DNA from: a virus
Strand: one strand, 5' to 3'
DNA length: 59,770 nucleotides
IMG/VR virus record: IMGVR_UViG_3300042691_021558
Coordinates: 1-59,770 of that record
Within the stretch, counting starts at the first letter, position 1. Each line of letters begins with the position of its first letter. This document shows positions 15,185-47,522 of this stretch, in pieces. Position numbers and translations under genes: made by a program. Below the pieces are notes generated by a model. That model saw nothing but the letters and a program-made list of their open reading frames with translations, had not been told where the DNA came from and did no database searches.

Positions 15185-16815
<1,631 letters not shown>

Positions 16816-16832
16816 TTATTTCCTTTTATAAC

Positions 16833-18941: not shown

Positions 18942-18953
18942 ATCAACTCTTTT

Positions 18954-18976
18954 TATATATTATAAATATAAGAAAT
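18954..18976 (-). promoter_or_regulatory. AT-rich promoter-like element, class A
   Basis: The minus strand reads ATTTCTTATATTTATAATAT, 13 nt upstream of the vWA gene start. Nearly identical to the element upstream of the MoxR gene at 20256-20279. Confidence 0.55.
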
Positions 18977-19004
18977 TATTTGGTATTATCCAACCAAAAA
19001 GATT

Positions 19005-19069
19005 AAAAAAATGGAGCTGTTTACACACTAACCGTTATGCCTATCAGGTTAAACGGGTCACTCCATTTT
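19005..19069 (-). terminator. rho-independent terminator after the MoxR/CobS gene
   Basis: On the minus strand AAAATGGAG and CTCCATTTT close a long stem-loop containing an inner helix around ACCCGTT/AACGGTT, followed by a T run. It separates the AAA+ gene from the vWA promoter. Confidence 0.75.
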
Positions 19070-19089
19070 CTTGAGCTATGAAAAAGATC

Positions 19090-20241
19090 TTAGAATGGGA
19101 TATTGTTTAAGTTATCTGTATCGGCTCCTACATTGAAAATGTCTTTCTCTGCAGTTGCCATATGTTTCTGAATAATTTGTTTCACAAAGGTTCTTTCAGA
19201 ATCTGCACCTCCTGATGCATCAAAGAAAGGAAGGATTGCTACCTCAGCAGCTTCAATCAAAGTGAATCCATCTGCTAACAAGTCGCAAATACGAACCGTC
19301 ATACGAGTGGATACCATGGTGCTGAGTTTACCGTCTTCAGATCTCCATTCTTTGCGAGTAGAGTCTGCAATGTCAGCCACTGCATGAATAAGCTCTGGTG
19401 TCACCTTGTTACCAAACTTATAAGTCAATAGTGCTGCTTCACGCTCCATGGAAAGGATATCAACCTCAATGATTTCGAAACGATCCATCAAGGCACGGTC
19501 AAGCACGCGTGTCGATGTATACTCGGTACCAATGTTTGCCGTAGCAATAAATGATACACCCTCAGCAACCTTAATAGTCGGAGCATCAACATCTTCGTCT
19601 AGGCGAAGGTAACGCTGACCCTCATCCAACACTGTCATAAGGATGTTCCATGCCTCAGGATGCGCACGAGACAACTCGTCAAGCAAGATTACAGCATTCT
19701 CAGTTTGGATAGCCTTCACAAACGCTGACTCGTCAAATGTGGTCTCGCCAGCTTTGAAATGCGTGTTACCAATCAGAGTAGCACGCGGATCCTGTGTAGC
19801 TCCTAAGTTAAAATAAAAGAATGCTCGGCCGGTTGCTTGTGGCAAAGCCTTTGCTGCTTGTGTCTTACCACAACCTGCAGGTCCTACCATCATGATGTTC
19901 TTGCCACGAACTGCTGAACGAACCAAGTACTTCCATTTGATGTCAGACATTTCTAGGTCAGCCGGCTTGATGTTCTTAGCATTGTTAATGAATGCCATCA
20001 CCGGATCCATCTCTGTAGCTTCTGCTACTTGTGGGGTGCGTGGCTCTGCAGGAATATCTGCCATTGGCACTCGCTTACCGCGACACGTGTCAAAATTATA
20101 CTTTAGCCCTTCCATGTTGGTTGCAGCCAAATTGATCATGTCCGCGCGGAACAAGTGCGTAATGTTTGCGCCGGTGTTTACCTCAATTACACGTACGCCT
20201 TTTGCATCGATTTCAACGATACCATAAGTTTCTTTTTTCAT
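19090..20241 (-). CDS. MoxR/CobS-type AAA+ ATPase, 383 aa
   Basis: AAA+ ATPase with Walker A GPAGCGKTQAAK (residues 120-131), Walker B VILLDELSRAH (about 185-195), and downstream sensor and arginine-finger regions (IATANIGTEYTST; RVLDRALMDRFE). Residues 1-95 form a separate N-terminal domain. MoxR/CobS ATPases act as rings with vWA partners; the vWA protein is encoded immediately downstream under its own promoter. Phage CobS-like proteins are known from other T4-like phages. Function of the pair in infection is not established. Confidence 0.9.
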   Translation of the reverse strand: MKKETYGIVEIDAKGVRVIEVNTGANITHLFRADMINLAATNMEGLKYNFDTCRGKRVPMADIPAEPRTPQVAEATEMDPVMAFINNAKNIKPADLEMSDIKWKYLVRSAVRGKNIMMVGPAGCGKTQAAKALPQATGRAFFYFNLGATQDPRATLIGNTHFKAGETTFDESAFVKAIQTENAVILLDELSRAHPEAWNILMTVLDEGQRYLRLDEDVDAPTIKVAEGVSFIATANIGTEYTSTRVLDRALMDRFEIIEVDILSMEREAALLTYKFGNKVTPELIHAVADIADSTRKEWRSEDGKLSTMVSTRMTVRICDLLADGFTLIEAAEVAILPFFDASGGADSERTFVKQIIQKHMATAEKDIFNVGADTDNLNNIPF

Positions 20242-26800: not shown

Positions 26801-26978
26801 TGTCTATGTTCCTTTTTTTATATATCGGCCAATTTTTTGTTTGTTCGTTTAACCAGGCCTGTCGATCATCACACCCACAATCTTCATCTAGTATCTGTGC
26901 AATTCGTTTTGCTAGCTGATCTAATCCTGTTGCAACAGTTATTTTTTTAATATCGTCGCCTAAGCCTTTACTTTGCAT
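26784..26978 (-). CDS. small conserved phage protein (SKGLGD...DCGCD type), 64 aa
   Basis: Start at 26978 has a Shine-Dalgarno GGAGG 5 nt upstream; the codons up to 26990 are rejected. The sequence MQSKGLGDDIKKITVATGLD ... ILDEDCGCDDRQAWLNE is a pattern I know from short proteins of Bacteroidota phages. It contains a Cys pair. Function unknown. Overlaps both neighbours. Confidence 0.6.
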   Translation of the reverse strand: MQSKGLGDDIKKITVATGLDQLAKRIAQILDEDCGCDDRQAWLNEQTKNWPIYKKRNIDNGDNK

Positions 26979-28326
26979 CAATTCCTCCATTGTTCATTGA
27001 GTTTCTAAGTTGCATGATCATTGTTTGATACTGAGCCGTTTGTGGTATTTCAAACACAGTTCGTCCTGGAAACTGATAATCATGTTCTGGATGCATCATT
27101 AGCATATGACCCGTTTCATCAATTCCTAACACAGGATGTGCTACTTCACGCATTGTGATCGCCCCGGTTGGAGTTGGTATCATGGTGCAGAAGCCTGGAT
27201 GTTTCCATTGTCCTTCTGGATCAATTACTCCGCCTGTTTTTCGTATAACATTGGCCCAACCTTTAAGGTCTAATGGTCGTTTGCGCGTAACATGCAAAAC
27301 CAATGATTCTGTTATTTCTTTTTCATCGTCTGATTTTAGGAAGGCAGATGGCATAATATGTTTATCCATTTTGAGTGCCTTTGCTAGTATTGCTACTAAA
27401 CTACCACCTGGCATAATTGCTACTGTAGTTAGTCCTAACAGTTTCACCACATCTTTCATTTGGTTACGAACCCATGCCCATTCTTCCGAAGTTAGTTTCT
27501 CACCGTTAATATGACGAAGCAGCATCACCATGGCTTGTTTGGTTTCATCTTTCTCAGTACGCATTGCCGAAATAAAGTGTTTTACTTTATCCTTTGCTTT
27601 GTTAACTGTGTCAGCCATATTGATTTCATTTAAAGAACTTTCTAACGCAAGTTGACCCATTGTAATCTTTTTTTCAAGGTTCTTTAAACGTTCGATATAT
27701 CCTTTATTACGTAGATGTTTGAATGCCATGTTTTCCACCGAATACTCGCCTTCTGCTTCTAAACCAGTTTGGCGAAGATGCTGGAGTCGTTGTGTGATGT
27801 TTTTAATTTTTTGTTCTATGTGTGGATCCGTCTCTTTGAGTGAATCAATATCGTATTCGTATGGTTCTGCTTTTTGTTGAATGGCTCCATCATCTACAGT
27901 AACAGTGTCGGAGGCTGGTTTGCGTATCCATTTATCACGTAGCACGGAATATATTCCTACTGATGAATGCAAGTCCTCATTTGAATCTTGGGCATACAAC
28001 TCAATGTTCATGCCTTTATATGTTAAAGGGTGTGTAGTGTTCCATATGCTTTTCTTTGCATGCATATAATTTTTAACTATGTGTAGATTGTCTCCAATTT
28101 CTAAATAGTTAATAACAACATGCAAATCAATATCACTATGTTCCGTCCAATTGTAATTAGCACTACTACCGATGATTATAACATCATGGATATCACAACG
28201 TACTTCTAAGAAATTGTAAAATGCTTTTGCAATTTTCATGAACCCAACACGAAGCTTGGGATGAAGTTTGTCTCCATCCCAAAGCTTTGGATTAAGTGTG
28301 CTATGTGTTTGATATTCGGTTATCAT
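26968..28326 (-). CDS. nucleotidyltransferase - LETM1-like fusion protein, 452 aa
   Basis: Begins MITEYQTHSTLNPK. Residues about 40-140 form a nucleotidyltransferase-like domain with IIGSSANYNWTEHSDIDLHV (GS-x-(n)-D-x-D motif). Residues about 230-310 contain a LETM1-like region (LTSEEWAWVRNQMKDVVKLL; VAIMPGGSLVAILAKALKMD, ending MPSAF). A third domain of about 115 residues follows. (L/I)xE sites (SLNE|I at about 230; EITE|S at about 325) sit at both domain junctions. Likely an injected virion protein processed by a prohead protease; the catalytic activity is not demonstrated. Confidence 0.7.
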   Translation of the reverse strand: MITEYQTHSTLNPKLWDGDKLHPKLRVGFMKIAKAFYNFLEVRCDIHDVIIIGSSANYNWTEHSDIDLHVVINYLEIGDNLHIVKNYMHAKKSIWNTTHPLTYKGMNIELYAQDSNEDLHSSVGIYSVLRDKWIRKPASDTVTVDDGAIQQKAEPYEYDIDSLKETDPHIEQKIKNITQRLQHLRQTGLEAEGEYSVENMAFKHLRNKGYIERLKNLEKKITMGQLALESSLNEINMADTVNKAKDKVKHFISAMRTEKDETKQAMVMLLRHINGEKLTSEEWAWVRNQMKDVVKLLGLTTVAIMPGGSLVAILAKALKMDKHIMPSAFLKSDDEKEITESLVLHVTRKRPLDLKGWANVIRKTGGVIDPEGQWKHPGFCTMIPTPTGAITMREVAHPVLGIDETGHMLMMHPEHDYQFPGRTVFEIPQTAQYQTMIMQLRNSMNNGGIDAK

Positions 28327-30872: not shown

Positions 30873-31220
30873 TCATTTCCAAAAGAGCTGTATTAAAATC
30901 AATGCAAATGCTAATCCGAGAGACACTGCTGTTTTTAAATTGATGGCTTCATCCCGGAATACCCAGGTCATGATGGCAAACATAGTAATACCAGTAACAA
31001 ATGAAACAAATCGACCCGGCCAAAATGCACCGTCAAACCCGGTAACTGCAAATCGTGTTGCTTCCATAAACAACCAAGTGATTGGAACACCCATTAGCAT
31101 AAGTGCCCATCGGTATGTTTTAGCCCATGGCCATATTAATGGTCCATTTGTTTGTATCCAAACGAAGCTTTGTCCTACTAAAAAAATTAATATGGAAAAT
31201 ATAATGTATTTATAGTTCAT
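30873..31220 (-). CDS. four-helix membrane protein, 115 aa
   Basis: ATG at 31220 (MNYKYIIFSILIFLVGQSFV) chosen over the longer frame to 31253, whose extra codons lie in a promoter-like stretch. Four hydrophobic segments: about 3-22, 38-55, 72-92 and 95-113. The second is followed by MEATRFAVTG. The protein has the size and shape of small multidrug/EamA-like half proteins, but no family is confirmed. Last gene of the lysis/signalling operon. Confidence 0.65.
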   Translation of the reverse strand: MNYKYIIFSILIFLVGQSFVWIQTNGPLIWPWAKTYRWALMLMGVPITWLFMEATRFAVTGFDGAFWPGRFVSFVTGITMFAIMTWVFRDEAINLKTAVSLGLAFALILIQLFWK

Positions 31221-31258
31221 ATCATATAATATGAAATTTACTACAGAATTCAAAGTAA

Positions 31259-31831
31259 TTATTTATTAGAGTCAGATGCGTATTTAACACCCATGATAGT
31301 GCCGATGATACTAAAAGCATTTGTTAGCAATATACCAAACATATTACTCCACGTGCTACCAATGATCTGAGTATCTTTATTAACAAACAATGCAACCATA
31401 TATATAACGGTAGTTGTGACACCTACTCCGATTATGATAATAAGTGATATACGAACAATTAGATTGATTAACTCGAACTGAGTTCGTTTTTGTATCATGT
31501 CTAAACTGTCCATGGCGGCATCGCGGGCTGTTTCAGCATCACATTTGGATTGTTCTGCATCCGTTGCTGCTTGTTGAAGTTCTATCATCAACTGTTGATT
31601 TTGTTCGTTTGATTCAACTAGTTGTTTGTTTTGATCTTGTATTTGTTTGGTTATTTCTAATCGTTTTCGTCGATTTTCTTTATCGCGGGTTGTGCATGTT
31701 TTTATATATGCATCAAACTCAATATCATCGGTTGAATCAATTAACTTTAGAATGTTGCCTTCTAGAGCTATATTTTTACGGGCATATAACTCAATTAATT
31801 TTTGTTTAGTATTATCATCTAATACTATCAT
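31259..31831 (-). CDS. coiled-coil protein with two C-terminal membrane helices, 190 aa
   Basis: Residues about 45-112 form a long coiled coil (EITKQIQDQNKQLVESNEQN ... AEQSKCDAETARDAAMDSLD). Two membrane segments follow: about 120-146 (LINLIVRISLIIIIGVGVTT) and 158-180 (MFGILLTNAFSIIGTIMGV). The start overlaps the response-regulator stop as ATGA. It is an attractive output partner for the receiver protein upstream, because no other effector is encoded in the operon. That link is inference from gene order. Confidence 0.65.
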   Translation of the reverse strand: MIVLDDNTKQKLIELYARKNIALEGNILKLIDSTDDIEFDAYIKTCTTRDKENRRKRLEITKQIQDQNKQLVESNEQNQQLMIELQQAATDAEQSKCDAETARDAAMDSLDMIQKRTQFELINLIVRISLIIIIGVGVTTTVIYMVALFVNKDTQIIGSTWSNMFGILLTNAFSIIGTIMGVKYASDSNK

Positions 31832-32265
31832 CGATACACTTTAAATGGGGCAGTGCGTGCTTTATACCCGTCATAGTCTGCGCGGAATTGTTCTAAACGA
31901 GGTTCGATATCATCTGACTTAATTATCCAAAACTGTGCGCCGGCTTGAATTGCCTTTGCTTGTTCTTCTGGTTCATTTGATGATGAGATGATTCCAATAA
32001 CCACGTTATTACCATACTCAAAATTAATTTTTCTGATAAGTTCGATACCATCAAACGAACTACCAATAATATTCAAGTCAACAAATACACATTCGGGTTT
32101 ATCGTTAGCATCGCCACTTTGAAACCATTTTTGAAACAGTTTTGCTGCTTCGTCGGAACTATTTAATGAGTTTAAAGACAAACTTATATCGAGCAATGAA
32201 CATGCATCTTCAAATACTAAGTGGAATAAATCTTCATCATCTACCAATAAAATTGAATCAATCAT
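31828..32265 (-). CDS. response-regulator receiver domain protein, 145 aa
   Basis: Single receiver domain without a DNA-binding or other output domain. Key residues: acidic pair D9-D10 (ILLVDDEDLFH), phosphoacceptor D63 (CVFVDLNIIG), Ser motif about S94-S96 (GIISSSNEPE) and Lys116 (FWIIKSDDIE), all in the expected order and spacing. The start overlaps the histidine-kinase stop by 8 nt. It is the probable phosphorylation partner of that kinase. Stand-alone receivers usually act by protein-protein interaction, as in CheY or Spo0F. Confidence 0.85.
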   Translation of the reverse strand: MIDSILLVDDEDLFHLVFEDACSLLDISLSLNSLNSSDEAAKLFQKWFQSGDANDKPECVFVDLNIIGSSFDGIELIRKINFEYGNNVVIGIISSSNEPEEQAKAIQAGAQFWIIKSDDIEPRLEQFRADYDGYKARTAPFKVYR

Positions 32266-33871
32266 TTTTGCTTTCCTTTATTTTTATTTTCATTTTTGTG
32301 CCTGTTTCATTTTTTTCACAGGTAATATTAAATCCATGTTCTTCTAAAATAGCAACACAAATATTTAAACCCAAACCAGTTCCAGCTTCAGTTTGGCCTT
32401 CTTTCCGAGTATATGGTTTTGATAAATGATCAAAATCTTTTTGTGTAATACCTCTACCATTATCTTGAACGTAAATGGTATCATCATCGGAATATATTTT
32501 AACAAACTTAGTGTCAGAATCATTATACTTTAAACCGTTTCTAATCAAGTTATCCAATGCTGTACAGAACAATGCTTCGTTTACTTCGATGGTTGGTAAC
32601 TGGTCGATAATAACTTGACTACTGTATGCAGTTGATGACAAGTAATCGGATAATATCATTTTCAAATCACATTCAGCTTTATTTAGTACAACATCTTTTT
32701 TTACGAGATTGGTAAATTCATATACACCTTTATACACTTTTTGTGAATGTTTCAATCCTTCTTTAATCATGCGGATTGGGGCTTCAATTTTTAATGAACT
32801 AATATCATCAGAACTTAATCTTCTTTCTAACGAACTAAGTCCCCTAGGCATATACGTATTAATACCTGAATGCATATCGTGTCTTAATATCTTAGCTGCG
32901 TGTTCTAGATACGTATTTTTCTTTTCAATCTCTTTCTTTTGTTCATATGAATCGGTAATATTAGTAGCAATTTTCAATATGCGATATATCTTGCCGTCCA
33001 TTCCGATAATTGGATTATAAGTTGATTGTAAATACACTAAAGAGCCATCTTTTTTAACTCTTGTAATTTCACCGGTAAATAATATACCGTCATTTAGTTT
33101 TTTCCAAAAAAGAGCATATTCTTCACTGTTAAAATGTGTGTCGTCTATAAATATTCTGTGGTGTTTTCCGACTAGTTCATCAGCTGAATCATATCCCATG
33201 GTTGTTAAAAACAAGTCATTAGCAAAAATAATGTTACCTTCTAAATCAAATTCAATAACTGCGTTAGATTTATTTATGGCATTCATTCTATTACGAATTT
33301 CTACTTCTTTTTTCTTAAGCTCCGTAACGTCTTGTCGTATTGATGAAAACCCTTCTAAATTGCCATGTTTATCAAATCGGGCTCTAATGTATGTGTCGAC
33401 ATAATATAGGTCACCTGTTTTTGTTTTGTTGGTGACAATTGCATTCCATATCTCACCTTTCATCACTGTTTCATACATCTTACCCCAGTACCCATCGGGT
33501 TGTAGACCAGAGTTTACGATGATATGATCTTTACCGATAACCTCATCTAAAGACCATCCTGATACTTCTTCAAATTTTTTATTAACGTATGTTATTTTAC
33601 CAGTTTTATCAGCAATTGAAATAATTGCAGCTGTGTCAATAAACTCATCAGTATCTTTTATTTTTTTTAATAAAGTACTTGTTATATCAGCTGCGTGTGA
33701 TTTCATTAAAAAATAAAATAGTGGTAAGAACACTAAAAAACACACAATTTCAATTCCGCGTGTAATGTAACTAGAATCTAATACTGAAAAGAATACTAAA
33801 CCTTTTGTTATAGCAAAAACTACTAATGTTACTATGGTAATACCTTTAAGTATTTTATGTAAACTAATCAT
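32258..33871 (-). CDS. membrane-bound sensor histidine kinase with two PAS domains, 537 aa
   Basis: Two N-terminal membrane helices (about 10-33 and 38-58) leave a short periplasmic loop. PAS 1 spans about 75-185 (IISIADKTGKITYVNKKFEE) and PAS 2 about 203-310 (FDLEGNIIFANDLFLTTMGY). The phosphoacceptor region is LRHDMHSG (H331). The ATP-binding domain carries N-box TALDNLIRNGLKYN (N441), G1 VQDNGRGI and G2 TEAGTGLGLN. Starts 1 nt after the holin stop and overlaps the response regulator. A complete kinase in a phage lysis operon is highly unusual. It could sense redox, ligand or membrane state through PAS and control lysis timing; that role is inference. Confidence 0.9.
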   Translation of the reverse strand: MISLHKILKGITIVTLVVFAITKGLVFFSVLDSSYITRGIEIVCFLVFLPLFYFLMKSHAADITSTLLKKIKDTDEFIDTAAIISIADKTGKITYVNKKFEEVSGWSLDEVIGKDHIIVNSGLQPDGYWGKMYETVMKGEIWNAIVTNKTKTGDLYYVDTYIRARFDKHGNLEGFSSIRQDVTELKKKEVEIRNRMNAINKSNAVIEFDLEGNIIFANDLFLTTMGYDSADELVGKHHRIFIDDTHFNSEEYALFWKKLNDGILFTGEITRVKKDGSLVYLQSTYNPIIGMDGKIYRILKIATNITDSYEQKKEIEKKNTYLEHAAKILRHDMHSGINTYMPRGLSSLERRLSSDDISSLKIEAPIRMIKEGLKHSQKVYKGVYEFTNLVKKDVVLNKAECDLKMILSDYLSSTAYSSQVIIDQLPTIEVNEALFCTALDNLIRNGLKYNDSDTKFVKIYSDDDTIYVQDNGRGITQKDFDHLSKPYTRKEGQTEAGTGLGLNICVAILEEHGFNITCEKNETGTKMKIKIKESKND

Positions 33872-34288
33872 TTATCGTATACCTTTATGCTTATCTAATG
33901 CATCTAGAATTTGATTAAGAACTGGTGCTTTTATAAACCCTGCCATCGATGCATTTTTAAGTGTACTGATAATTTGTAATATAATGAATGGAATTAAAAT
34001 TGTTTCACTTAACCAAGAAGTTCCTGGATATCCTTTTTCTACAGACAGCAACACCGTTAAAATTATAATCCATGTTGCGGCTGTTCGAAGTACTTTGATT
34101 GCTTTACATGTTTGAAAACCTTCTCGCTTTATTCCAGCAATTACACCAAAAAACCCATCGACAAACACTACTGCAATTAATGCTAGATATTGCTCGTAAT
34201 AGTCGATAGATAGATTAAAAAAATACGAACATATAAATGATATCATGGTCGTTGTGGATAATATTATTGCTAGAGCGGTTGTTTTCAT
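33872..34288 (-). CDS. holin (phage lysis holin family), 138 aa
   Basis: Membrane protein with several hydrophobic helices: about 5-25 (AIILSTTTMISFICSYFF), 34-53 (LALIAVVFVDGFFGVIAG), 67-82 (AATWIIILTVLLSV) and 94-113. The GIKREGFQTCKAIKVLRT segment after helix 2 resembles the holin family of the TcdE/phi-LC3 type (HOL_4 type). Its start overlaps the L,D-transpeptidase-like gene stop (ATGA), and its stop abuts the histidine kinase. Probable role: pore formation that releases endolysins. Confidence 0.75.
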   Translation of the reverse strand: MKTTALAIILSTTTMISFICSYFFNLSIDYYEQYLALIAVVFVDGFFGVIAGIKREGFQTCKAIKVLRTAATWIIILTVLLSVEKGYPGTSWLSETILIPFIILQIISTLKNASMAGFIKAPVLNQILDALDKHKGIR

Positions 34289-35079
34289 TTTATATCTGAA
34301 GATTCAATTAAAGTATATGAAAATTTATTACCATTTGCTGTTTTAGCTTTGCGACAAATTGACATAAACTCTTCAAAATCAGCAGAACGTTTAAATACCT
34401 GGCAGCCTTCCGACCAATTTTCTACATATGTTGAATCAGCGCCGGCTTTATGAATGTTGATTCCAAATACACCTTCTTGAATTGATTTTTCATCATATAC
34501 CATATCTTTGTTTGGATCGCGGAACACTTTAACTGGTTTGTTTTGTCCTAATGCTTCATACTTCCCGGCATGCAAACGCATTATGTGTGAATCGATATAT
34601 TGTCCTTCTACTAAACGAGCAACACCAGCTTTGTTTCCATACTGCATTACGCCTTTTGTTCCTGGATCGGTTGTTGCTGACCAACAATGGAATTTTTCTT
34701 CTCCGTTTACGGTGTAAGATACTGTAATGTGATCATCGAATAGATTGGTTACTTTCTGTCCAGTTGCTGAATTACGAACTCCGATTATATTTAAAACATA
34801 ATCGTTGCCATCAAACCATTTATATCCTTTTGCTTTTACTGCTGACTCAATTTGGTCTTTTGTGTATTTTGAAACCGATGCTGGTTTTGCTTCTACAACG
34901 ATTCCCATCTTAGCTAATGTTGCTGGGCCGACTACTCCATCTGCAGTTAATCCATTTTTAGTTTGCCACGCTTTAACTGCTTCTTCTGTTTTAGGTCCAA
35001 AATTTCCTACTGGATCTACACCTAATACTACTTGAATTTTTTTAACCGTCTCGTTGTTATCACCTTTTTTTAGTATCAT
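34285..35079 (-). CDS. peptidoglycan-binding protein with L,D-transpeptidase-like domain, 264 aa
   Basis: Residues 1-60 form a PG_binding_1 domain (KKGDNNETVKKIQVVLGVDP; KTEEAVKAWQTKNGLTADGV; VVGPATLAKMG). The C-terminal half ends with GVFGINIHKAGAD and NWSEGCQVFKR, the H-x-(n)-S-x-GC arrangement of YkuD/L,D-transpeptidase-type catalytic domains. A cell-wall-targeting enzyme in the lysis cassette. It may act as an endolysin that cleaves or remodels peptide bridges; exact chemistry not shown. Confidence 0.75.
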   Translation of the reverse strand: MILKKGDNNETVKKIQVVLGVDPVGNFGPKTEEAVKAWQTKNGLTADGVVGPATLAKMGIVVEAKPASVSKYTKDQIESAVKAKGYKWFDGNDYVLNIIGVRNSATGQKVTNLFDDHITVSYTVNGEEKFHCWSATTDPGTKGVMQYGNKAGVARLVEGQYIDSHIMRLHAGKYEALGQNKPVKVFRDPNKDMVYDEKSIQEGVFGINIHKAGADSTYVENWSEGCQVFKRSADFEEFMSICRKAKTANGNKFSYTLIESSDIK

Positions 35080-35106: not shown

Positions 35107-35568
35107 TTAATCTTTCTTAAAATATAAATTTGCTTCTGCTTCGCGGCGACGAACTAGACCCCTTAACACGCGGCCTCCTGCCTTTGTCCATTTCATGAAC
35201 TCAGCTCGGATAGTTTCGTCTGACGGATCAGCATTAACTTTTTTTAATAATGTTGATGATTTTAGGTTTGCTGGACCTAGATTGTAGGCAAATGATACTA
35301 ATGCATCGAATTGATTCTGATTGATGTCATCTCGACAATATGAATCTACATACTGCTCAAAACTTGCTAACATGCTTTTCAATAAGTCTGTGCCATGGAC
35401 TTCCGTGATTGGAGTATCGGACATTGTTACTTTTTTACCACCTGGATAAAAAGTTGCGCCGTAACCAATAGTAGGAATTCCTGCAGGGCACTTATAAGGT
35501 GCTGCGCGGAACCCTTCCATTGTTTTGATTATTTCAATTCCGGCCGTTCCTGTTTTTGTAATTTTCAT
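35107..35568 (-). CDS. endolysin, GH24 lysozyme, 153 aa
   Basis: Cleaves the MurNAc-GlcNAc glycan backbone. T4-lysozyme-family signature: MEGFRAAPYKCPAGIPTIGYG holds the E-8-C-5-T triad (E18, C27, T33), followed by CRDDINQNQFDALVSFAYNL (GH24 helix) and RGLVRRREAEANLY at the C-terminus. No signal peptide is visible, so access depends on the holin downstream. Length is close to the T4 lysozyme. Confidence 0.92.
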   Translation of the reverse strand: MKITKTGTAGIEIIKTMEGFRAAPYKCPAGIPTIGYGATFYPGGKKVTMSDTPITEVHGTDLLKSMLASFEQYVDSYCRDDINQNQFDALVSFAYNLGPANLKSSTLLKKVNADPSDETIRAEFMKWTKAGGRVLRGLVRRREAEANLYFKKD

Positions 35569-35586: not shown

Positions 35587-35805
35587 TTATTTTTTCATTA
35601 AAAACTTTTCAGCTACATTACCAGCAATACAGATAATTACAATAGTTTTAACTGCGTCTACTAGGTCTGTAGATGGTTTAATTGATTCATGTGAATATGA
35701 ATTTAACACCATGGTAACAGAAATAAATAGGAATCCTAAAAATGCAATAACTCGTTTCATTGAGGTGTCTCCACCGGTAAACATTTCTTTGATAAAATTT
35801 TTCAT
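35587..35805 (-). CDS. small two-helix membrane protein, possible holin/antiholin, 72 aa
   Basis: MKNFIKEMFTGGDTSMKRVI: hydrophobic segments about 17-34 (RVIAFLGFLFISVTMVL) and 49-66 (DAVKTIVIICIAGNVAEKFL), acidic loop between, Lys-rich end. Size, position at the head of the lysis operon and topology fit a phage holin or antiholin. A class B promoter-like element lies at 35829. Confidence 0.6.
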   Translation of the reverse strand: MKNFIKEMFTGGDTSMKRVIAFLGFLFISVTMVLNSYSHESIKPSTDLVDAVKTIVIICIAGNVAEKFLMKK

Positions 35806-36719: not shown

Positions 36720-37577
36720 TTACAATCCGTTAATATATTGCTTTAATTTATCTGTCGGTGTCCAATTTAATAATTCTAACGCTACATCTCGTTCACGTAA
36801 TGTTATACGATAGTTTCCTTTTTGATCTGGTAAATATGTTGTTGTGCAATTGAACTTCTCTATAAACATGGCTGCTACTTCATTCATTGAATAATTTACT
36901 CCAGTACCCAATTCCCACGCATCCTCGATATAATGTTCAGTTTCCATGATTCGAATCAATCCATCAACAATGTGGTCTACATGTGTGAAATCTCTGCGCT
37001 GTTCGCCATCACCAATAATAGTAATTGGTTGTCCGTCTCGTACTTGTTTTCTCCAAATTCCAATCACAGCTGCATAGTCGCCATCCACAATTTCATTTGG
37101 TCCATACACATTGTAAAATCTTGCAATCTGCACTTTAAGTCCATAACACTCTTCATACATCTTACAAATTTCTTCTCCTAAGAACTTGCTTAAAGCATAT
37201 GGTGAAATCCTAGGATTATGCCAACGGGATGATGATCCTGCATACACAACCTTTGCATCCGTATGTCTAGCATATTCTAAAACTTTGAAAGTTCCTGTTG
37301 TGTTTGCGTCATATGTTTCTAATGGTAGTTTAAATGATATTTGAATACGTGCAACTGCAGCAATATGGAATATAACATCAAATTTATCAACTGCTGGATT
37401 AAATATATTATCAATGTTATTAACATCATCTATAATGTATTTAACATTCTCTATTTTATTGTCCAATGTGCCGCAAGATAAATTGTCAATACATGTTACG
37501 CCATGTCCTAATGCAACCAATTGTTTACATAAGTTTGAGCCAATAAAGCCTAGCCCACCTGTTACTAAAATTTTCAT
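36720..37577 (-). CDS. NAD-dependent sugar epimerase/dehydratase (GalE-like), 285 aa
   Basis: Extended short-chain dehydrogenase: MKILVTGGLGFIGSNLCKQL (GxxGxxG), VIFHIAAVARI, VVYAGSSSRW and SPYALSKFLGE (the catalytic Y-x-x-x-K), FYNVYGPNE. Works on a nucleotide sugar; the exact reaction (4-epimerase or 4,6-dehydratase) is not determined. Starts 10 nt after the GT2 gene. It shares its sugar-pathway context with the dehydrogenase downstream. Confidence 0.85.
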   Translation of the reverse strand: MKILVTGGLGFIGSNLCKQLVALGHGVTCIDNLSCGTLDNKIENVKYIIDDVNNIDNIFNPAVDKFDVIFHIAAVARIQISFKLPLETYDANTTGTFKVLEYARHTDAKVVYAGSSSRWHNPRISPYALSKFLGEEICKMYEECYGLKVQIARFYNVYGPNEIVDGDYAAVIGIWRKQVRDGQPITIIGDGEQRRDFTHVDHIVDGLIRIMETEHYIEDAWELGTGVNYSMNEVAAMFIEKFNCTTTYLPDQKGNYRITLRERDVALELLNWTPTDKLKQYINGL

Positions 37578-37587
37578 ATTCTAATTT

Positions 37588-38352
37588 CTATTTGTTTGTT
37601 ATAAATTTTTTGTTTGTTAATGGATCGTGTCCTATGTATCCACCCCATTTGTATCGGGCATATTCATGGCCGGCTTGTTCTGCCAAGTTACGTTTCTCTC
37701 CATTTGCAGAAACTGCCGCAAAGTGATAAAAATGACAGTTCCATGTTCTTAGCATACGTAGTCCTGATAGTTGACATTTTAAAAAAAAGTCCCAATCGGC
37801 TACCATACCCATTTCATAATTTTCATCCCATCCGCCAACTCGAAGATAATCAAGCTTTGACATAAAGATAGGAAGTGTGGATCCACATTCCTCAGTTTTA
37901 TCCCCAGATGCATAATGATAATCAAACAACCAAAATGCTTCAAGATCGAATGATGCAATGTCAGTTCCTAAATTTTCTATAATAAACTGAGGAAACATAC
38001 TAGGAAACGGTTCTACTTGATTAGGTGTTATTACAGCACCTTCTTGCCATTCTTCTTCCAATGTAGAATCCCAAAATCTTGGAAACACGTTATCGTCATT
38101 AACAATAAGTATTTTATCATATCGCGAATTGTATACACCTAGATTAGTTCCCCGACATTGACCTGCATTTTGTTCTAAGTTCAATATATCAATTGAATCT
38201 TTCCAACGGTCTAAGACCTCTTTATTCAAGTCATAGTACCCGTCTACAACAACGATAATCTGATTTTTATTGCATTGTCCTTCAATTGCAGAACGCAAAC
38301 AAAGATCCAATGCGTCTGGACTTTTATATGTAGGAATTATTACTGATATCAT
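37588..38352 (-). CDS. GT2 glycosyltransferase, 254 aa
   Basis: ATG at 38352 overlaps the upstream stop as ATGA. MISVIIPTYKSPDALDLCLR and ILIVNDDNVFPRFWD (the D-x-D-like metal site) identify a GT-A fold family 2 enzyme. GGWDENYEMGMVADWDFFLK (ED-like) supports it. Sugar donor and acceptor unknown. Part of the glycan island. Confidence 0.8.
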   Translation of the reverse strand: MISVIIPTYKSPDALDLCLRSAIEGQCNKNQIIVVVDGYYDLNKEVLDRWKDSIDILNLEQNAGQCRGTNLGVYNSRYDKILIVNDDNVFPRFWDSTLEEEWQEGAVITPNQVEPFPSMFPQFIIENLGTDIASFDLEAFWLFDYHYASGDKTEECGSTLPIFMSKLDYLRVGGWDENYEMGMVADWDFFLKCQLSGLRMLRTWNCHFYHFAAVSANGEKRNLAEQAGHEYARYKWGGYIGHDPLTNKKFITNK

Positions 38353-39044
38353 AGTGTTGACCAATCTGTTAATGGTGATAACCAAGCTGTTTCACCATGG
38401 GTAGCATAACCAGGAATCGGTGTTATTAACAATTGGTTTTGTTTTCTCAATTCTAAAAACATATGAAAATCATTAGGATGTGTACCGGCTGTGTGTGTTC
38501 TCAGAATTGTTTCTGTAAATTTCAATGTTGATACTTTGCTAGCAAATGTCATCGTAGTTGAATTAGTAATTTTCCAATGGCATGAATCCGTTAAGTAAAT
38601 ACGGGTATCTTCAGCACCGCCTTCACAGTATGGATTTCCGCCGCGGCTTGGATCTAAGTACTTGTCTGGATGATCGTATAGTGCAACGAATGATGCACCT
38701 AAGTCAAATCCTTGTTTCAATACATCTGGAGAACCTTGCTTATGTAAATAATCATTTTCTACAAAATACACAATTTCATCATCTGCATAGGTTAATGCTT
38801 TATCTAACGCTAAATTGAATGTGCCGGCACCATTACCAACCGATACCTGAATGATATTTGCTGGGTCAATGTATCGTTTAATCATTGCTAACGTAGCATC
38901 ACTACAATTGTCCGCAATAATTAGAATGTCATAAATATGATTAAAAAATACATTGCAGAAATTTTTTAAACATGATTCATTGTTGATGTAGTCTGGCTTT
39001 ACTTTATTGTAACCAGCATCTGATATTCTATATATTATTTTCAT
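38349..39044 (-). CDS. glycosyltransferase, GT-A fold, 231 aa
   Basis: MKIIYRISDAGYNKVKPDYI; ILIIADNCSDATLAMIKRYI and VYFVENDYLHKQ (acidic metal-binding motif) are typical of GT-A enzymes, as is the later ALYDHPDKY. ATGA overlap with the downstream GT2. Donor unknown. Confidence 0.75.
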   Translation of the reverse strand: MKIIYRISDAGYNKVKPDYINNESCLKNFCNVFFNHIYDILIIADNCSDATLAMIKRYIDPANIIQVSVGNGAGTFNLALDKALTYADDEIVYFVENDYLHKQGSPDVLKQGFDLGASFVALYDHPDKYLDPSRGGNPYCEGGAEDTRIYLTDSCHWKITNSTTMTFASKVSTLKFTETILRTHTAGTHPNDFHMFLELRKQNQLLITPIPGYATHGETAWLSPLTDWSTL

Positions 39045-39997
39045 TTTAAAAATACGTTGTTAAACTGTTTCATTACCAACTCTGGTGAATACATTGAATA
39101 TGCATTCCAATTTTCATGTTTATTTATAATATCCGGAAAATTTGTTAAAATTCCAATTAATTCGTCATAGTTGTTATAGATTATTGATTTATCTCCTAGC
39201 ATTTCAATATGTGCTAAATCATTGAATCCGGAATCACACCACGATGTTGTTATAATTGGTTTATTTTTTACAGAAAATTCAGCTACAGTTAAACCAAATG
39301 ATTCTCCTCCATTTCTTGCGTGTATACACGCATCACATGTATTAATAAATCCAATCTTTGTAGTCATATCAGATGTGCCACTTATAAAAAATACATTTGA
39401 CTCATCGCAAAATTGATTAGAATTCATAAACAAAAAATACATATTTTTGTTAGCTCGTGCAACATTTATAACAGCTTCGCGAGCAAATGGAATATTAAAT
39501 GAATCCGGGCCGCCATAATATCCAAATACTAGTGCATCTGTTGGTATATTAAAAAATTGACGATAGTTTTCCATATGGTCGTATTTTAAAATATCAACAA
39601 TATGCGGGACAAATGGCAATGTACCGCCTGACATTTGTGTTGATAACCATTTAGATACATATGCATATACATCTCCGTGTGGATCATGTAACTGAAAAAC
39701 GGAATGTACTAAATTTTTAGCATTCGGTACTAGTTTGCCATCATTCATACCAGCTTTTATATAATAAACGGCATCAATTTGATTTTGATCGATATAAGAT
39801 ATAACATCATCAAATTTGTCATATAAAAATACATTAAACTGTTTTTGAAATTTATCCAATGCAGCTAAATCTGAGTTTCGATTTGATATAATTACTGAAT
39901 CATTGTTTAATAATTCTTGATTATAATATGCATAATCAAATAAGGCAATTTCAGTTCCTCGAAGGCCTAGTTGTTCACTATGAAATGCAATTTTCAT
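39041..39997 (-). CDS. GT4-type glycosyltransferase, 318 aa
   Basis: GT-B fold: FGYYGGPDSFNIPFAREAVI, CDACIHARNGGESFGLTVAE (the E-x-x-(n)-E donor-binding motif region) and SWCDSGFNDLAHIEML. Two Rossmann halves, no signal peptide. Overlaps the neighbours by 4 nt on each side. Confidence 0.8.
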   Translation of the reverse strand: MKIAFHSEQLGLRGTEIALFDYAYYNQELLNNDSVIISNRNSDLAALDKFQKQFNVFLYDKFDDVISYIDQNQIDAVYYIKAGMNDGKLVPNAKNLVHSVFQLHDPHGDVYAYVSKWLSTQMSGGTLPFVPHIVDILKYDHMENYRQFFNIPTDALVFGYYGGPDSFNIPFAREAVINVARANKNMYFLFMNSNQFCDESNVFFISGTSDMTTKIGFINTCDACIHARNGGESFGLTVAEFSVKNKPIITTSWCDSGFNDLAHIEMLGDKSIIYNNYDELIGILTNFPDIINKHENWNAYSMYSPELVMKQFNNVFLK

Positions 39998-40683
39998 ATA
40001 TTTAAAAAGTTGTTTAATTTGTTAATGTTCATTGTAATATCACCAGGTACCCGATCAGGCTTATACGATGGTTTAACTCGATCATTGGTTTTTATTGCTA
40101 AGTCGTATATAGTTTTAGAATCTGTACCAACATTGTAGACTCCAGTTGCTTGTTGATGAATCAGTTTAACAATTAAATTGCTAATAACATCTACAGAATC
40201 ACAATTTGTATGTATATCTACCCAAGCAGTATCATACGGAAATGGATTAGGTTTATGTGATAATCGACAAATTAAATAGTTGTTACTTCGTAATTGAACT
40301 AATGCATCGCCAACTAATTTTGTGTAACCATACCAAGTTGGTATGTGAACTGGGACATCGGTTTCTGATGCTACTGGTACAGAGCCGGCATAGATATAAT
40401 CGGTAGAAATATGAATTAATTTTTTGTTAGTCGAATTGCATACATCAATTAAATCGTTGAGAGCTTGAAGATTAACGTCCCACGCTGTTTGCATATCTAC
40501 GCCGTATGTATCAGTATATGCAATACAGTTAACTACAGTATCGTATGAATCATTTAGTAAATGTGACCATTCTGATAACTGAGTAATATCAATATTGTTA
40601 TGTGTTCTGGAAATATAGTCCCAATTGGTTTGCCGAATTAATTCTTGTCCCAATAAGCCTTGTCCGAGTACAACTACGTTCAA
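39994..40683 (-). CDS. RmlD-like sugar-nucleotide reductase, 229 aa
   Basis: Short-chain dehydrogenase of the dTDP-4-dehydrorhamnose reductase type: VVVLGQGLLGQELIRQTN, DTVVNCIAYTDTYG, LIHISTDYIYAGSVPV, WYGYTKLVGDALVQ (Y-x-x-x-K). It probably reduces a 4-keto-6-deoxysugar. The start is TTG at 40683, with its first three bases forming TTGA with the upstream stop. Shorter than the usual 290-300 aa. Confidence 0.75.
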   Translation of the reverse strand: MNVVVLGQGLLGQELIRQTNWDYISRTHNNIDITQLSEWSHLLNDSYDTVVNCIAYTDTYGVDMQTAWDVNLQALNDLIDVCNSTNKKLIHISTDYIYAGSVPVASETDVPVHIPTWYGYTKLVGDALVQLRSNNYLICRLSHKPNPFPYDTAWVDIHTNCDSVDVISNLIVKLIHQQATGVYNVGTDSKTIYDLAIKTNDRVKPSYKPDRVPGDITMNINKLNNFLNI

Positions 40684-41969
40684 AATTTAAAATCCTTTAT
40701 AACTTGTTCTATATACATAAATACCTCATCCGTATAATGTGGTGCTGCTCCAATAAAGAACACTGAATCTAAAACTTTGTTAGCTTCTGGATATTTAGAT
40801 GAATCATCTAAAAAACTATAACCTGGATGTAGTAATATGTTCCCGGCAAAATAGTTTCTTGTTTGTATTTTATTCTTTTCTAGATGTTCTACTAGTTTAT
40901 GTTTCAGCCCCGGTGTTTCGCATATGAATGGAGTTCCAAACCAACATGGTTCTGCTGATTCTAAGGTTACCGGAGTTCGTAAATTTGGTATATGCTTTAA
41001 AAATATATCACTAATTACAGTTTTTGATCTTTTTCGTTTTGATTCAATATCATCTAGTTTTTTCAACTGTTCGATGCCGATGGCTCCTTGTAAATCTAAT
41101 GGCTTAAGATTATACCCCATTTCTGAAAATACATACTTATGATCAATTACGCCATCGTAATTATCTAACCACTTATCAAAACGATTACCGCATGTGCCAC
41201 ACGCTAATAGATTTGCTGATCCTATACAATAGCAGTCGCGACCCCACCAACTAATTGACACAAATAACTTTTTTAATTCATCATCATTTGTACAAATCAT
41301 TCCGCCTTCTCCGGTGGATATATGATGTGCTGGGTAGAATGAATTTGAAAATGCAACGTAATATTCATTTAAATATTTGCCATTCCATTTAGATCCTAAA
41401 CTATCACAATTATCCCCAACAAGTTTCAAATTGTATTTTTCACATAGTTCTAGTAATCTATCAATGTTCGGTGGATTACCTAGTACTGGAGAAACAAAGA
41501 TTGCTTTTGTTTTTGGAGTAATTTTTTGTTCAAGTAAATCCAAATCAAAATTCAAGGTGTCCCATTCAATATCAACAAAAATTGGTTTTAATCGATGTTG
41601 ATAAATTACTGATATTGTAGTTGCAAACCCAACAGGCGACACTATAATTTCATCATCATCAGCCCAATTAAATCTACGCTTCAATGCAGCAATCAAAACC
41701 AAATTGGCTGAACTACCTGAGTTTACCATGTGTGAATGTTTAACATTGAACTTTTTACTAAACTCGAGTTCAAACTTATAAACTCGTTCTCCGGTAGTAA
41801 TCCATTTACCATTCAAAAATGAATGAATTGCAGCTTCGGTTTCTTTTTCATCCCAATATGGTCCTGAGTAATATATTGGAGTAGTGCCCGGTATAAAATT
41901 TTTATTATTGTAAATATATGGAGCTACGTGATTGCCAATTAATGTTTGTATGTCGCTTTTTTGTATCAT
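40680..41969 (-). CDS. RfbH-type CDP-4-keto-6-deoxyglucose 3-dehydratase (E1), 429 aa
   Basis: DegT/DnrJ-like PLP-fold enzyme whose usual Lys is replaced by His: NSFYPAHHISTGEGG (H215/H216). Cys residues C188, C246 and C248 are spaced as in the C-x57-C-x1-C iron-sulfur binding pattern of the E1 enzyme of 3,6-dideoxyhexose synthesis (SWWGRDCYC, then LLACGTCGNRFD). This combination identifies the C3-deoxygenation dehydratase rather than an aminotransferase. It would need an E3-like reductase, not seen here. Suggests the phage makes or modifies a 3,6-dideoxyhexose. Confidence 0.85.
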   Translation of the reverse strand: MIQKSDIQTLIGNHVAPYIYNNKNFIPGTTPIYYSGPYWDEKETEAAIHSFLNGKWITTGERVYKFELEFSKKFNVKHSHMVNSGSSANLVLIAALKRRFNWADDDEIIVSPVGFATTISVIYQHRLKPIFVDIEWDTLNFDLDLLEQKITPKTKAIFVSPVLGNPPNIDRLLELCEKYNLKLVGDNCDSLGSKWNGKYLNEYYVAFSNSFYPAHHISTGEGGMICTNDDELKKLFVSISWWGRDCYCIGSANLLACGTCGNRFDKWLDNYDGVIDHKYVFSEMGYNLKPLDLQGAIGIEQLKKLDDIESKRKRSKTVISDIFLKHIPNLRTPVTLESAEPCWFGTPFICETPGLKHKLVEHLEKNKIQTRNYFAGNILLHPGYSFLDDSSKYPEANKVLDSVFFIGAAPHYTDEVFMYIEQVIKDFKF

Positions 41970-42679
41970 TGTTGTGTATAATTTTTAAATTCAGTAACTG
42001 ATGGAAATTCTGTTAACTTGCCAAAATGTTGTTCTAACAATGGATCAAATTCAAACGGCGGTGTGCCATTAAATGGTGTTGTATACTGATAGTTTCCCCA
42101 TTTATGTTTAACGTATTCTGCATTATGTTGACCAACCTTTAAGCTAGGAGAATTTGGATCAGTAGATGTGGAATTTCCGTTAAACATACTAGGAACATTT
42201 AGATTTATGTTTTGTACATTATGCAATTTACAGCGATGGTCATAATCGTTATCTTCACACCCAGCCCATAGTATATTTTCATCAAATCTACCAACCGTAT
42301 TAAATATGTCTCGATGCATGCAATATAGTGCATATCCAAATCCGTTATTGTATGTGGTAGCTAATGATGTGGCAGTTGAATTATCCCACAATGCATCCAG
42401 AATTTCCAAACTGAATCTGGAATCTTCTTCACTAACAATAACTTTTTCTAGTCCCATATGGTTGAATGCGATATCACATATAAAATTCCATCCTCCTGCG
42501 CAGCCAATATTGGTTGTGGTTGTATAGACATCAAAATTATCAGTTATATACGAATTTAGTTGCTGTCGCCCGTTATCGATAAAGTAAAATTGATATTCAT
42601 CAGAATAATTGGCTAAATTGAACCATTCAGTAAAATAATCATTTGCATTATATCCTAATACAAAAACATGTTTTTTCAT
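41966..42679 (-). CDS. glycosyltransferase, GT-A fold, 237 aa
   Basis: MKKHVFVLGYNANDYFTEWF; TNIGCAGGWNFICDIAFNHM; KVIVSEEDSRFS (acidic site); FDENILWAGCEDNDYDHRCK. The pattern of a small family 2-like enzyme. Overlaps upstream and downstream neighbours by 4 nt. Confidence 0.7.
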   Translation of the reverse strand: MKKHVFVLGYNANDYFTEWFNLANYSDEYQFYFIDNGRQQLNSYITDNFDVYTTTTNIGCAGGWNFICDIAFNHMGLEKVIVSEEDSRFSLEILDALWDNSTATSLATTYNNGFGYALYCMHRDIFNTVGRFDENILWAGCEDNDYDHRCKLHNVQNINLNVPSMFNGNSTSTDPNSPSLKVGQHNAEYVKHKWGNYQYTTPFNGTPPFEFDPLLEQHFGKLTEFPSVTEFKNYTQQ

Positions 42680-43560
42680 AATAAACTTTCTATAATTTGT
42701 TCTATAACTTCACTATCTGTATAATAAGGATTCATCATCAAATGTCCAACCGTTTCAAAATATTTATCTGGTCCTAGTTGTGGAGACTCTATCTTTTTTA
42801 ATACTCCGTTAGGTCCGTATAATTGATATATGAAATCTCCAGTTAAAATAGTGCGACACCCTACCCCGGCAGCTAAATTTGCTAACCCGCCTTCAGTTCC
42901 TATAAATGCATCGCAATGCTTTAAAACAGACGCTTCAAACAAAATTGACTTTGTATCAGTATCTGCTACATGTATAGTTTGTTGTTGATTTGCTGAATCA
43001 AACCCAATTGGATACAATGTAAAATGTTCCTGTAAGCCATCAATTATATATTGAATATCGCGATGACTACCACCGTAACCTAAATTAGGAACATCGACTC
43101 CGGCTTCATACTGTTCCGGTGTAAATAAATAGGTTTTTGGTTGCCAATTGGACATTACTCCTATAACCGGCTTACCTGTTTCTTGTCGAATATCGTTTAT
43201 ATATTTTTCTGCTACAACATCGTATTCTGGTGTAGTGTATATTTGATATGATTTTGAAACAACATCAAACCCTGCTTGTTGTTGATATTCTTCACATGGC
43301 GTAATTTCATAATGTAACTCACTTAATTCAATAACACGATCATATCCAGATAATTCCAAAACCGGTCTAGGTCCAGGAATACTAGAAACAAATACTTGGT
43401 TGATAAATGGATTATTAGCAACAAGCTGTTGCATTTGTGGAAATCCAATTAAATAATCAACTTGTGTATATTGTGTTGATAATGTTTCTGCTAATGATGT
43501 AGCAAACATAATGTCACCAAAGAAACCATATGTAACTACTAAACATTTAGTATTTTGCAT
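42676..43560 (-). CDS. GT9-like (heptosyltransferase-type) glycosyltransferase, 294 aa
   Basis: GT-B enzyme: MQNTKCLVVTYGFFGDIMFA, DYLIGFPQMQQLVANNPFI, and a C-terminal part CDAFIGTEGGLANLAAGVGC resembling the D-x-GGxxHLAaAxg motif of family 9. ADP-heptose is a typical donor for the family, but the donor here cannot be read from sequence. Confidence 0.75.
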   Translation of the reverse strand: MQNTKCLVVTYGFFGDIMFATSLAETLSTQYTQVDYLIGFPQMQQLVANNPFINQVFVSSIPGPRPVLELSGYDRVIELSELHYEITPCEEYQQQAGFDVVSKSYQIYTTPEYDVVAEKYINDIRQETGKPVIGVMSNWQPKTYLFTPEQYEAGVDVPNLGYGGSHRDIQYIIDGLQEHFTLYPIGFDSANQQQTIHVADTDTKSILFEASVLKHCDAFIGTEGGLANLAAGVGCRTILTGDFIYQLYGPNGVLKKIESPQLGPDKYFETVGHLMMNPYYTDSEVIEQIIESLL

Positions 43561-43918
43561 AACTTTTTTCTTCTATAAATGTAGACCCATATTTCAAGTT
43601 GATTTGTTTTTTAATATCAGCTCTGAGGTCGTTTGTAATGTATACTTGTCGAGCATATTCCACAAACATGTCATCAAACTGTTTTCTGGATTCCATTTCT
43701 CGTAAAACATCTTCAATATCCCACAGTTTAACATTTATTGCAACTAACTGCTCATAATCAGACATTGCAATATTCAAATCCGCAAAAACTATTTCATGCA
43801 AATACAAGTATTCGCGATTAACATTTTCCAACTTGGCAGAATCGGTTATCTTTTGTCGTTTAATGTCTAAGATTGAAAGCTTATCAACAATCTCCCCTAC
43901 TGATACTTCTATATTCAT
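43547..43918 (-). CDS. DUF6165-like protein, 123 aa
   Basis: MNIEVSVGEIVDKLSILDIK matches the 'GE(I/V)(I/V)DK(L/I)(T/S)IL(D/E)IK' start of the short DUF6165 proteins that accompany glycosyltransferases. The rest is acidic helical (REYLYLHEIVFADLNIAMSD). It probably assists neighbouring glycan enzymes. Overlaps both neighbours. Confidence 0.7.
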   Translation of the reverse strand: MNIEVSVGEIVDKLSILDIKRQKITDSAKLENVNREYLYLHEIVFADLNIAMSDYEQLVAINVKLWDIEDVLREMESRKQFDDMFVEYARQVYITNDLRADIKKQINLKYGSTFIEEKSYAKY

Positions 43919-44664
43919 TGTTCAACACGATAATTAGTACTTTTAATCCAACGCACATTGGGCAGGCCTGCGACGAATTCTTCAATATCTGCTTTCACAT
44001 TACGATACCCTAAATGTCGATATTCATATGCCCGAGCAAATAATTGTCGACCTTCAACAAAGTCTTTTTGATGTTCCACGGTCTTTTTTGACATATCTCC
44101 GTTGTCAGCATGATATAGGCATAAGAATGTACCTGTTTCATTTCTTACAGGTGTGTATCCAGCCCATTTAAAACGTTCTCTGAGATCTTCATCTTCATTT
44201 CCCCATCCTTTGTATAATGGATTCAATCCGTTAATTGCATCCCATTGTTCTTTGCGGATTACAACTACGCCACCATAAAAGTTTTCATCGATACCATCTT
44301 CCCATTTACGATACCCACCTGGAATATCATAATAGTCTCGTTTGGTTAGATCTGGATTCACAAAAATTCCTTTGCGAGCTGGCAATACTGGTTGGTCTGC
44401 AATTGCATAACTAACATCGTCAGTTGGACAATAATCAACTTGATGCAACACAATGATGTTACCGGTTGCAACTTGTGCTGCTACATTCTGTGTGTTTGCT
44501 AAATTGAAATTGTCTGTATCGTTTTGTTCAGACACAATAATTTCAAAATCCATTCCTTCAAAATGTTTAAATAGTGCCGGAATCAATGTTTCTAAATGTT
44601 CTTTACGGTCACGATAAGGAATAATAATTGAATACTTATCGTTTGAAATTTGCGATTCTGTCAT
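43915..44664 (-). CDS. galactosyltransferase-like (GT7 C-terminal-like) protein, 249 aa
   Basis: YSIIIPYRDRKEHLETLIPA is the N-terminal motif of beta-1,4-galactosyltransferase-like GT-A enzymes, and LYKGWGNEDEDLRERFKWAG the W-G-x-ED-x-D substrate-binding motif. The acceptor is unknown. Overlaps the following glycosyltransferase gene by 29 nt. Confidence 0.8.
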   Translation of the reverse strand: MTESQISNDKYSIIIPYRDRKEHLETLIPALFKHFEGMDFEIIVSEQNDTDNFNLANTQNVAAQVATGNIIVLHQVDYCPTDDVSYAIADQPVLPARKGIFVNPDLTKRDYYDIPGGYRKWEDGIDENFYGGVVVIRKEQWDAINGLNPLYKGWGNEDEDLRERFKWAGYTPVRNETGTFLCLYHADNGDMSKKTVEHQKDFVEGRQLFARAYEYRHLGYRNVKADIEEFVAGLPNVRWIKSTNYRVEQ

Positions 44665-45409
44665 ATTGATGTACTACTTTATATTGTGAAACTGTGTTTA
44701 AATCAAATGCAACTAACCCTGCGTTAATTACATGTAAATGCACTGCAAACTTATCTTCTAATGTGGTAAATTTGGTTTGCTCTTTGTATTTGGTTTGTAT
44801 GAGGTAATTAAATGATGTTTGATCTGCTACTTTAAGTTTACCGGCAGATAACAAATAAATATCCATACACATTTCTTGAACTAATGCCAAAGGACCTCCC
44901 CATACACCGACATTATGTACTTGTTTATCTGACAATACATCTATTCCAATCAAGCCTAAGTTCACATATACATGTTCTTTGTTCCATGCTTCTTGGTTGT
45001 AAGTAATAATTTCGCTCGTTGCTGTGATCTTATCTGGATCTAGTCCGTCAAATGGATTTGAGTTAAAATATACATCTCGTACATCCGTAATAATAACGTG
45101 TGCATGATCTGCTGTTTTTAGATAGGACCATATATGGAAGAAACGAACATTGTGAATCAGATTATATGATGATTCAACTGTCATTGTTCCGGTATTGGTG
45201 GTAAATTCTGGCAATTCTCTGCCCCAGCAGTCAAATGTAGGATTCATGATCGATACATTGTTTTCTTTGAGATATTCTACCAATGTGTCTGTTGCATTAT
45301 AAATAAGCAACATTCTTTCTACATTCTCAAAATTAGATGTCTCAACCCAACCCTGCACATCTGCGACTGTATAATTGCCTGAGATAGCTCCTATTAATAA
45401 ATTTTTCAT
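44636..45409 (-). CDS. glycosyltransferase-like protein with D-x-D, 257 aa
   Basis: MKNLLIGAISGNYTVADVQG; HAHVIITDVRDVYFNSNPFD (D-x-D-like) followed by YVNLGLIGIDVLS. GT-A-like architecture, not assigned to a family. 4 nt overlap with the 318-aa gene upstream. Confidence 0.6.
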   Translation of the reverse strand: MKNLLIGAISGNYTVADVQGWVETSNFENVERMLLIYNATDTLVEYLKENNVSIMNPTFDCWGRELPEFTTNTGTMTVESSYNLIHNVRFFHIWSYLKTADHAHVIITDVRDVYFNSNPFDGLDPDKITATSEIITYNQEAWNKEHVYVNLGLIGIDVLSDKQVHNVGVWGGPLALVQEMCMDIYLLSAGKLKVADQTSFNYLIQTKYKEQTKFTTLEDKFAVHLHVINAGLVAFDLNTVSQYKVVHQYDRIANFKR

Positions 45410-46916: not shown

Positions 46917-46919
46917 AAA

Positions 46920-47516: not shown

Positions 47517-47522
47517 AATAAA

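Follow-up and report, generated by a model that had tools for sequence, protein, structure and literature searches.

A conserved histidine kinase, receiver and coiled-coil membrane protein unit of large environmental phages, often encoded near lysis genes, may link cell state to lysis

The timing of lysis by virulent phages is usually pictured as a built-in clock, and T4 lysis inhibition is the classic exception. In T4, the antiholins RI and RIII act on the holin T (PMC6832632). In cells, the two-component system LytST/LytSR lies beside holin/antiholin-like genes and regulates the expression of lrgAB (PMC6997555), and LrgAB-type proteins have now been tied to pyruvate transport. Signalling genes and domains have also been described in phages: the quorum-sensing genes of phage phiCDHM1 were described as bacterially acquired (PMC3901668), and for the cREC domains of jumbo phages any co-occurrence with histidine kinases is explicitly denied (PMC7824862). 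Our literature searches, whose coverage was partial and had bioRxiv outside it, returned no description of a phage lysis cassette that includes a kinase and its receiver, which agrees with an earlier note on this DNA whose author knew of no described phage system of this layout. The locus analysed here lies in a virus record of 59,770 bases (hereafter the window) and encodes a histidine kinase (HK), a stand-alone receiver (RR) and a coiled-coil protein with two transmembrane (TM) helices (CC), which together we call the module; all ORFs of the module and of the lysis run are on the minus strand (Table 1).

Table 1 Genes of the module and the lysis run in the window, listed in the order of transcription
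Feature	Coordinates	Strand	Remarks
Small membrane (TM) protein	35587..35805	-	heads the lysis run
GH24 lysozyme (endolysin)	35107..35568	-	Pfam lysozyme, 8.6e-43
Peptidoglycan (PG)-binding protein with L,D-transpeptidase (LDT)-like catalytic domain (phrog_3000)	34285..35079	-	PG_binding_1, 8.3e-14
Holin	33872..34288	-	Phage_holin_4_1 (3.9e-6, Pfam)
HK (histidine kinase)	32258..33871	-	537 aa; Pfam two PAS + HATPase_c
RR (stand-alone receiver)	31828..32265	-	145 aa; Response_reg, no output domain
CC (coiled-coil two-TM protein)	31259..31831	-	190 aa; EGN domain, coiled coil, TM hairpin
Four-helix membrane protein	30873..31253	-	probable start ATG at 31220, 115 aa

The gene order, positions and overlaps given in the earlier note were all recovered, every ORF being found where it had been placed: HK and RR overlap by 8 nt, RR and CC overlap by 4 nt (ATGA), and the stop of the holin gene abuts the start of HK. 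A 169-kb IMG/VR contig (L004 = G001) encodes a module and neighbours identical to those of the window. The holin is 64% identical to that of Flavobacterium phage immuto_2-6A, and relatives of the small membrane protein hold the same position in other module-bearing phages. The label of the PG-binding/LDT-like protein stood in its first part, through the PG_binding_1 match, and was weakly backed in its second, because the YkuD match (0.026) is below the cut-off and was obtained with a relative; a SEGC motif is visible. A promoter scan told little, with 35 promoter-like sites in the sequence and 45 in shuffles under a sigma-70 model that is ill-suited to Bacteroidota, and a terminator scan was likewise uninformative. 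Elsewhere in the window, a long run of sugar-nucleotide/glycosyltransferase-type genes (36720-51700) lies just upstream of the lysis run, and the region 15184-20241 holds a GroEL gene and, in its vicinity, genes for an AAA-type ATPase and for a protein with a CobT-like match (cobalamin biosynthesis).

HK begins with two TM helices separated by a short loop, continues with two PAS domains, and carries H331, an N-box (DNLIRNGLKYND) and the G1 (DNGRG) and G2 (GTGLGL) boxes. Pfam matched both PAS domains and HATPase_c (5.7e-16) and gave no HisKA match for the H-box. RR (Response_reg, 1.6e-8) consists of a receiver only over its whole length, and no DNA-binding output domain was found on it by Pfam. 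These HK features, like the RR residues D9/D10, D63, S94-96 and K116, had been read from this single sequence beforehand, and both readings were confirmed. When orthologues were checked for degraded catalytic residues, these were found to be retained: D9, D10, D63, S94-96 and K116 of RR are invariant in 68 of 68 distinct relatives, and H331 of HK is kept in 58 of 58. The H and G motifs occur in nearly all HKs, and a simple N-motif pattern missed some variants. Six divergent RRs share 79-90% identity in protein, as against 47-65% at third codon positions; RR genes appear to be under long purifying selection. Judged by sequence features, namely the phospho-His, the G-boxes, the receiver site and the adjoining genes, HK and RR qualify as a two-component system. 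The commonest gaps between HK and RR across loci are -8 to +24 nt. In about 30 loci there is a second kinase-family ORF upstream of RR, so that a module sometimes has two kinases, and in 20 loci of the collapsed set described below a secreted coiled-coil protein sits between the two. This inter-kinase protein (L033, L047-L050, L144, L154 and similar loci) is secreted-looking, has about 200 aa, a coiled coil and the motif YPIQT..KGDSVVIxT, and may be a spanin or a sensory partner. In six loci (L188, L199, L221, L282, L297, L229), a YceI-like gene, identified by eye, adjoins the kinase gene.

Scans of IMG/VR gave 87 relatives of HK and at least 590 of RR, the best 80 of each being listed as loci; with near-identical copies collapsed, 155 distinct RR genes were examined. 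CC follows RR directly in almost all of the 155. Of 151 junctions, 82 are 4-nt overlaps (ATGA) and 42 overlap by a single nucleotide, and another gene intervenes between RR and CC in L259, L242, L256 and L304. A search from the CC side, using a divergent CC as the query, found RR upstream in 78 of 79 loci, and the lone locus lacking it is at a contig end, with just 58 nt upstream of the CC match. Each of the 32 large contigs tested carries one copy of RR. This near-obligate linkage of RR and CC, together with the single copy of RR, indicates that HK-RR-CC is one unit, and it is this unit, not an HK-RR pair beside a holin, that is conserved. We consider it highly probable that it represents a real, phage-specific phosphorelay module with a membrane protein as its output. 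In INPHARED, searches with HK, RR and CC, divergent marine members included, turned up the module in none of the named phages, and HK matched there through PAS or ATPase regions alone. Flavobacterium phage immuto_2-6A encodes a relative of the holin, yet inspection of its locus showed no adjoining HK or RR. The hosts are probably Bacteroidota, because the nearest named relative of the window's holin is in a Flavobacterium phage and because a cellular relative of the module (L156, see below) is in a Bacteroidetes MAG.

CC is composed of a conserved N-terminal domain (EGN, residues ~1-71), a heptad-phased coiled coil and a C-terminal two-helix TM hairpin, and two TM helices were predicted in 142 of 150 proteins at the CC position. 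In the AF2 model (mean pLDDT 82.5, pTM 0.34), an N-terminal helical part is followed by one long helix that spans the coiled coil and TM1, and then by the TM2 helix. The TM2 region is the most conserved stretch of CC and holds invariant polar residues. The spacer that separates the N-terminal from the pre-TM motif has 50, 57, 64, 71, 78, 85 or 92 residues, that is, 1 mod 7, in 139 of 140 distinct CCs (L217 being counted after its motif was re-read), and the single exception differs by +11 residues, a hendecad. A hendecad also preserves the phase of a coiled coil. On a CC tree built by FastTree without the spacer, the length changed 27 times, an approximate count. Since any long coiled coil favours heptad indels, this phasing shows a continuous rigid helix; such a helix, with an RR-side domain, fits the transmission of a signal to the membrane. 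In scans of Pfam, PHROG and NCBIfam, CC matched no holin family, and its AF2 model matched no solved structure in the PDB, the structure search returning nothing but one uncharacterised viral relative. No family match (Pfam, PHROG) linked CC to T4 RI or RIII, such short proteins being known to diverge fast. CC is small and has two TM helices, as a class II holin (N-in/C-in) does, but it carries a long cytoplasmic coiled coil. We discarded the idea that CC serves as a histidine phosphotransfer protein, as it has no conserved His.

These properties of CC bear on the question of where the relay sends its signal. HK and RR are of ordinary bacterial type, and the closest natural protein to RR with a solved structure is the two-component response regulator 3ilh. 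One reading is that HK and RR connect to the two-component networks of the host, for example as a phosphate sink or through crosstalk, and reprogram host transcription, with CC merely anchoring RR at the membrane. We regard this as quite improbable, since RR has no output domain, the near-obligate translational coupling of RR and CC and the heptad phasing of CC imply a dedicated output, and the invariant residues of the TM hairpin exceed the needs of an anchor.

Outside viruses the family is nearly absent, with 2 cellular matches in 84,980 species genomes vs at least 590 viral RR matches. One of the two (L155, from an uncultured bacterial bin) has a TM-type CC and large terminase-like and PhoH-like genes (ORFs read by eye), and is probably a mis-binned phage contig. 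Two-component genes are common in bacteria, and the module might in principle be recently captured bacterial cargo, a moron with no phage-specific role; this is already contradicted by the cellular and viral counts, and the long purifying selection on RR also argues against it, so that we find it extremely improbable. The other match (L156, 5709-9090) has cellular genes around it in a Bacteroidetes MAG and encodes HK, RR and a CC variant in the same order with overlapping genes; in this variant, the EGN domain is joined to HisKA and HATPase_c in place of the TM hairpin. This effector swap in a single MAG suggests that the EGN domain may be the part that RR addresses, i.e., a likely input module, and that the rest of CC is an output that can be exchanged, being a kinase in the bacterium and a membrane hairpin in phages. 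The L156 genes are a possible parent of the phage module, in which case phages would have put a membrane-acting hairpin in place of the kinase that served as output in a bacterial protein controlled by RR. A search of 395 genomes of the class of this MAG with RR and the EGN domain found none besides L156.

The module is usually encoded near genes for lysis. A GH19 endolysin, which was not found in the window's phage, is present in 21 of 32 large contigs, usually as a single copy. With near-duplicate contigs dropped, it is found no more than 7 kb from RR in 15 of 19 independent contigs, where 1.43 are expected under uniform placement (naive P 2e-14, a value that ignores kinship and the functional clustering of phage genes); the LDT-like gene is near RR in 8 of 13 contigs (0.96 expected), and GH24 in 1 of 4. 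Late genes are often clustered in phages. In four contigs (G007, G008, G011, G020), 18-75 kb separate the GH19 gene from RR, and an M15 peptidase gene is close to the module in two independent contigs and distant in one. Relative to the module, four orientations were seen for the GH19 gene (down+ 42, up- 13, up+ 8, down- 2), and a tree puts the number of changes in its arrangement at about 28, which disfavours a single inherited layout. The GH19 gene directly follows CC in 27 of 149 loci, mostly after a gap of 10-14 nt, which is the slot of a holin; in the window, the CC gene is not directly upstream of an endolysin. The window's order (small TM protein, LDT, holin, HK, RR, CC, TM126, nucleotidyltransferase) is repeated in the divergent L275, L279 and L303, with GH24 absent from the shared operon, and L180 keeps the small TM protein and the GH24 lysozyme, with an M15 peptidase where the window has LDT and the holin. 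The window's protein at 26968-28326 (phrog_36119) resembles nucleotidyltransferases weakly, and its relatives stay downstream of CC in divergent phages.

Thus, the HK-RR pair does occur beside lysis genes in related phages, as the earlier note had proposed to check. Its description of the system as fused into the lysis operon fits the window's phage and some of its relatives. In other phages the module forms an operon of its own, separate or divergent, in the vicinity of another type of endolysin, and of the 87 loci whose 6-kb flanks are complete, 32 show no recognised endolysin or holin in that range. The link to lysis is therefore strong and not universal. The same note had named either CC or the holin as the output. 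A holin adjoins the module in a minority of loci from few lineages, which demotes the holin as the target of the relay and leaves CC, the constant partner of RR, as the likely output. Other frequent neighbours of the module are DnaK, a metallophosphoesterase-like protein and a four-TM protein of SMR-like type. The AF2 model of the window's four-helix protein resembles the small multidrug transporters EmrE/Gdx (Foldseek prob 0.97-0.99, E ~0.3-0.5), and its relatives are near the module in about 19 loci. These neighbours, the roughly one-third of well-flanked loci without recognised lysis neighbours and the want of a holin family match for CC would suit a membrane signalling unit with a job other than lysis, such as superinfection exclusion, control of ion or small-molecule flux, defence evasion or other regulation of the host membrane, whose proximity to lysis genes arises because both are late membrane-acting genes. 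We think this rather unlikely: the GH19 endolysin remains near the module through many rearrangements, as does the LDT-like gene, and the order of the lysis operon recurs in divergent phages.

On balance, we favour control of lysis by the HK-RR-CC relay as the best explanation. In this phage-specific signalling unit, HK in the inner membrane would sense the state of the infected cell or of its envelope through its TM helices and PAS domains and autophosphorylate at H331, and the phosphate would pass to D63 of RR. RR, which has no DNA-binding domain, would bind the EGN domain of CC and alter the coiled coil, and the register-locked helix would carry this change to the inner membrane, where the two-helix hairpin could then promote or restrain the formation of membrane lesions in a holin- or antiholin-like manner, by which the endolysin encoded nearby would be released at a chosen moment. 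Tentatively, we propose that CC may itself act as a holin or antiholin gated by the signal: the phosphorylated receiver would switch its hairpin through the coiled coil, and the phage would thereby time lysis according to the sensed input. CC need not be a holin, because the window's phage already has a recognised one beside HK.

Hundreds of large environmental phages carry an intact HK-RR relay together with CC, usually near the genes that burst the host, and may use it to sense the cell before lysis. If this is true, many such phages sense the state of the cell and decide the moment of the burst, and standard two-component mutants (H331A, D63A) offer a way to test phage decision-making. A new class of receiver output would also follow, a membrane-hairpin switch rather than DNA or a motor.

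Among known systems, the nearest cellular analogue is LytST-lrgAB, which likewise is a two-component system adjoining holin/antiholin-like genes; it is cellular and acts on expression, whereas the phage RR has no DNA-binding domain, and neither a LytTR-type RR nor LrgA/LrgB homologues were found in Pfam and NCBIfam scans. T4 lysis inhibition resembles the proposed relay in that a phage-encoded signal would be transduced to lysis timing at the inner membrane, but it uses direct antiholins and no phosphorelay, and a sequence relation was not found. Phage phiCDHM1 also bears signalling genes, which are of the quorum-sensing type and not a conserved module beside lysis genes. With canonical two-component systems and receivers of the CheY and Spo0F type, the module shares the H, N and G boxes of HK, the full phosphoacceptor site of RR and adjacent overlapping genes, and the output proposed for RR is, as for CheY, by protein contact and not by DNA binding. 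It differs from them in being phage-encoded, in an H-box unmatched by Pfam HisKA, in sometimes having two kinases, and in its output, a coiled-coil two-TM protein of which no description was found in the literature. Finally, the cREC proteins are also receiver-fold proteins of large phages, but in the phages described here the receiver is coupled to a kinase.
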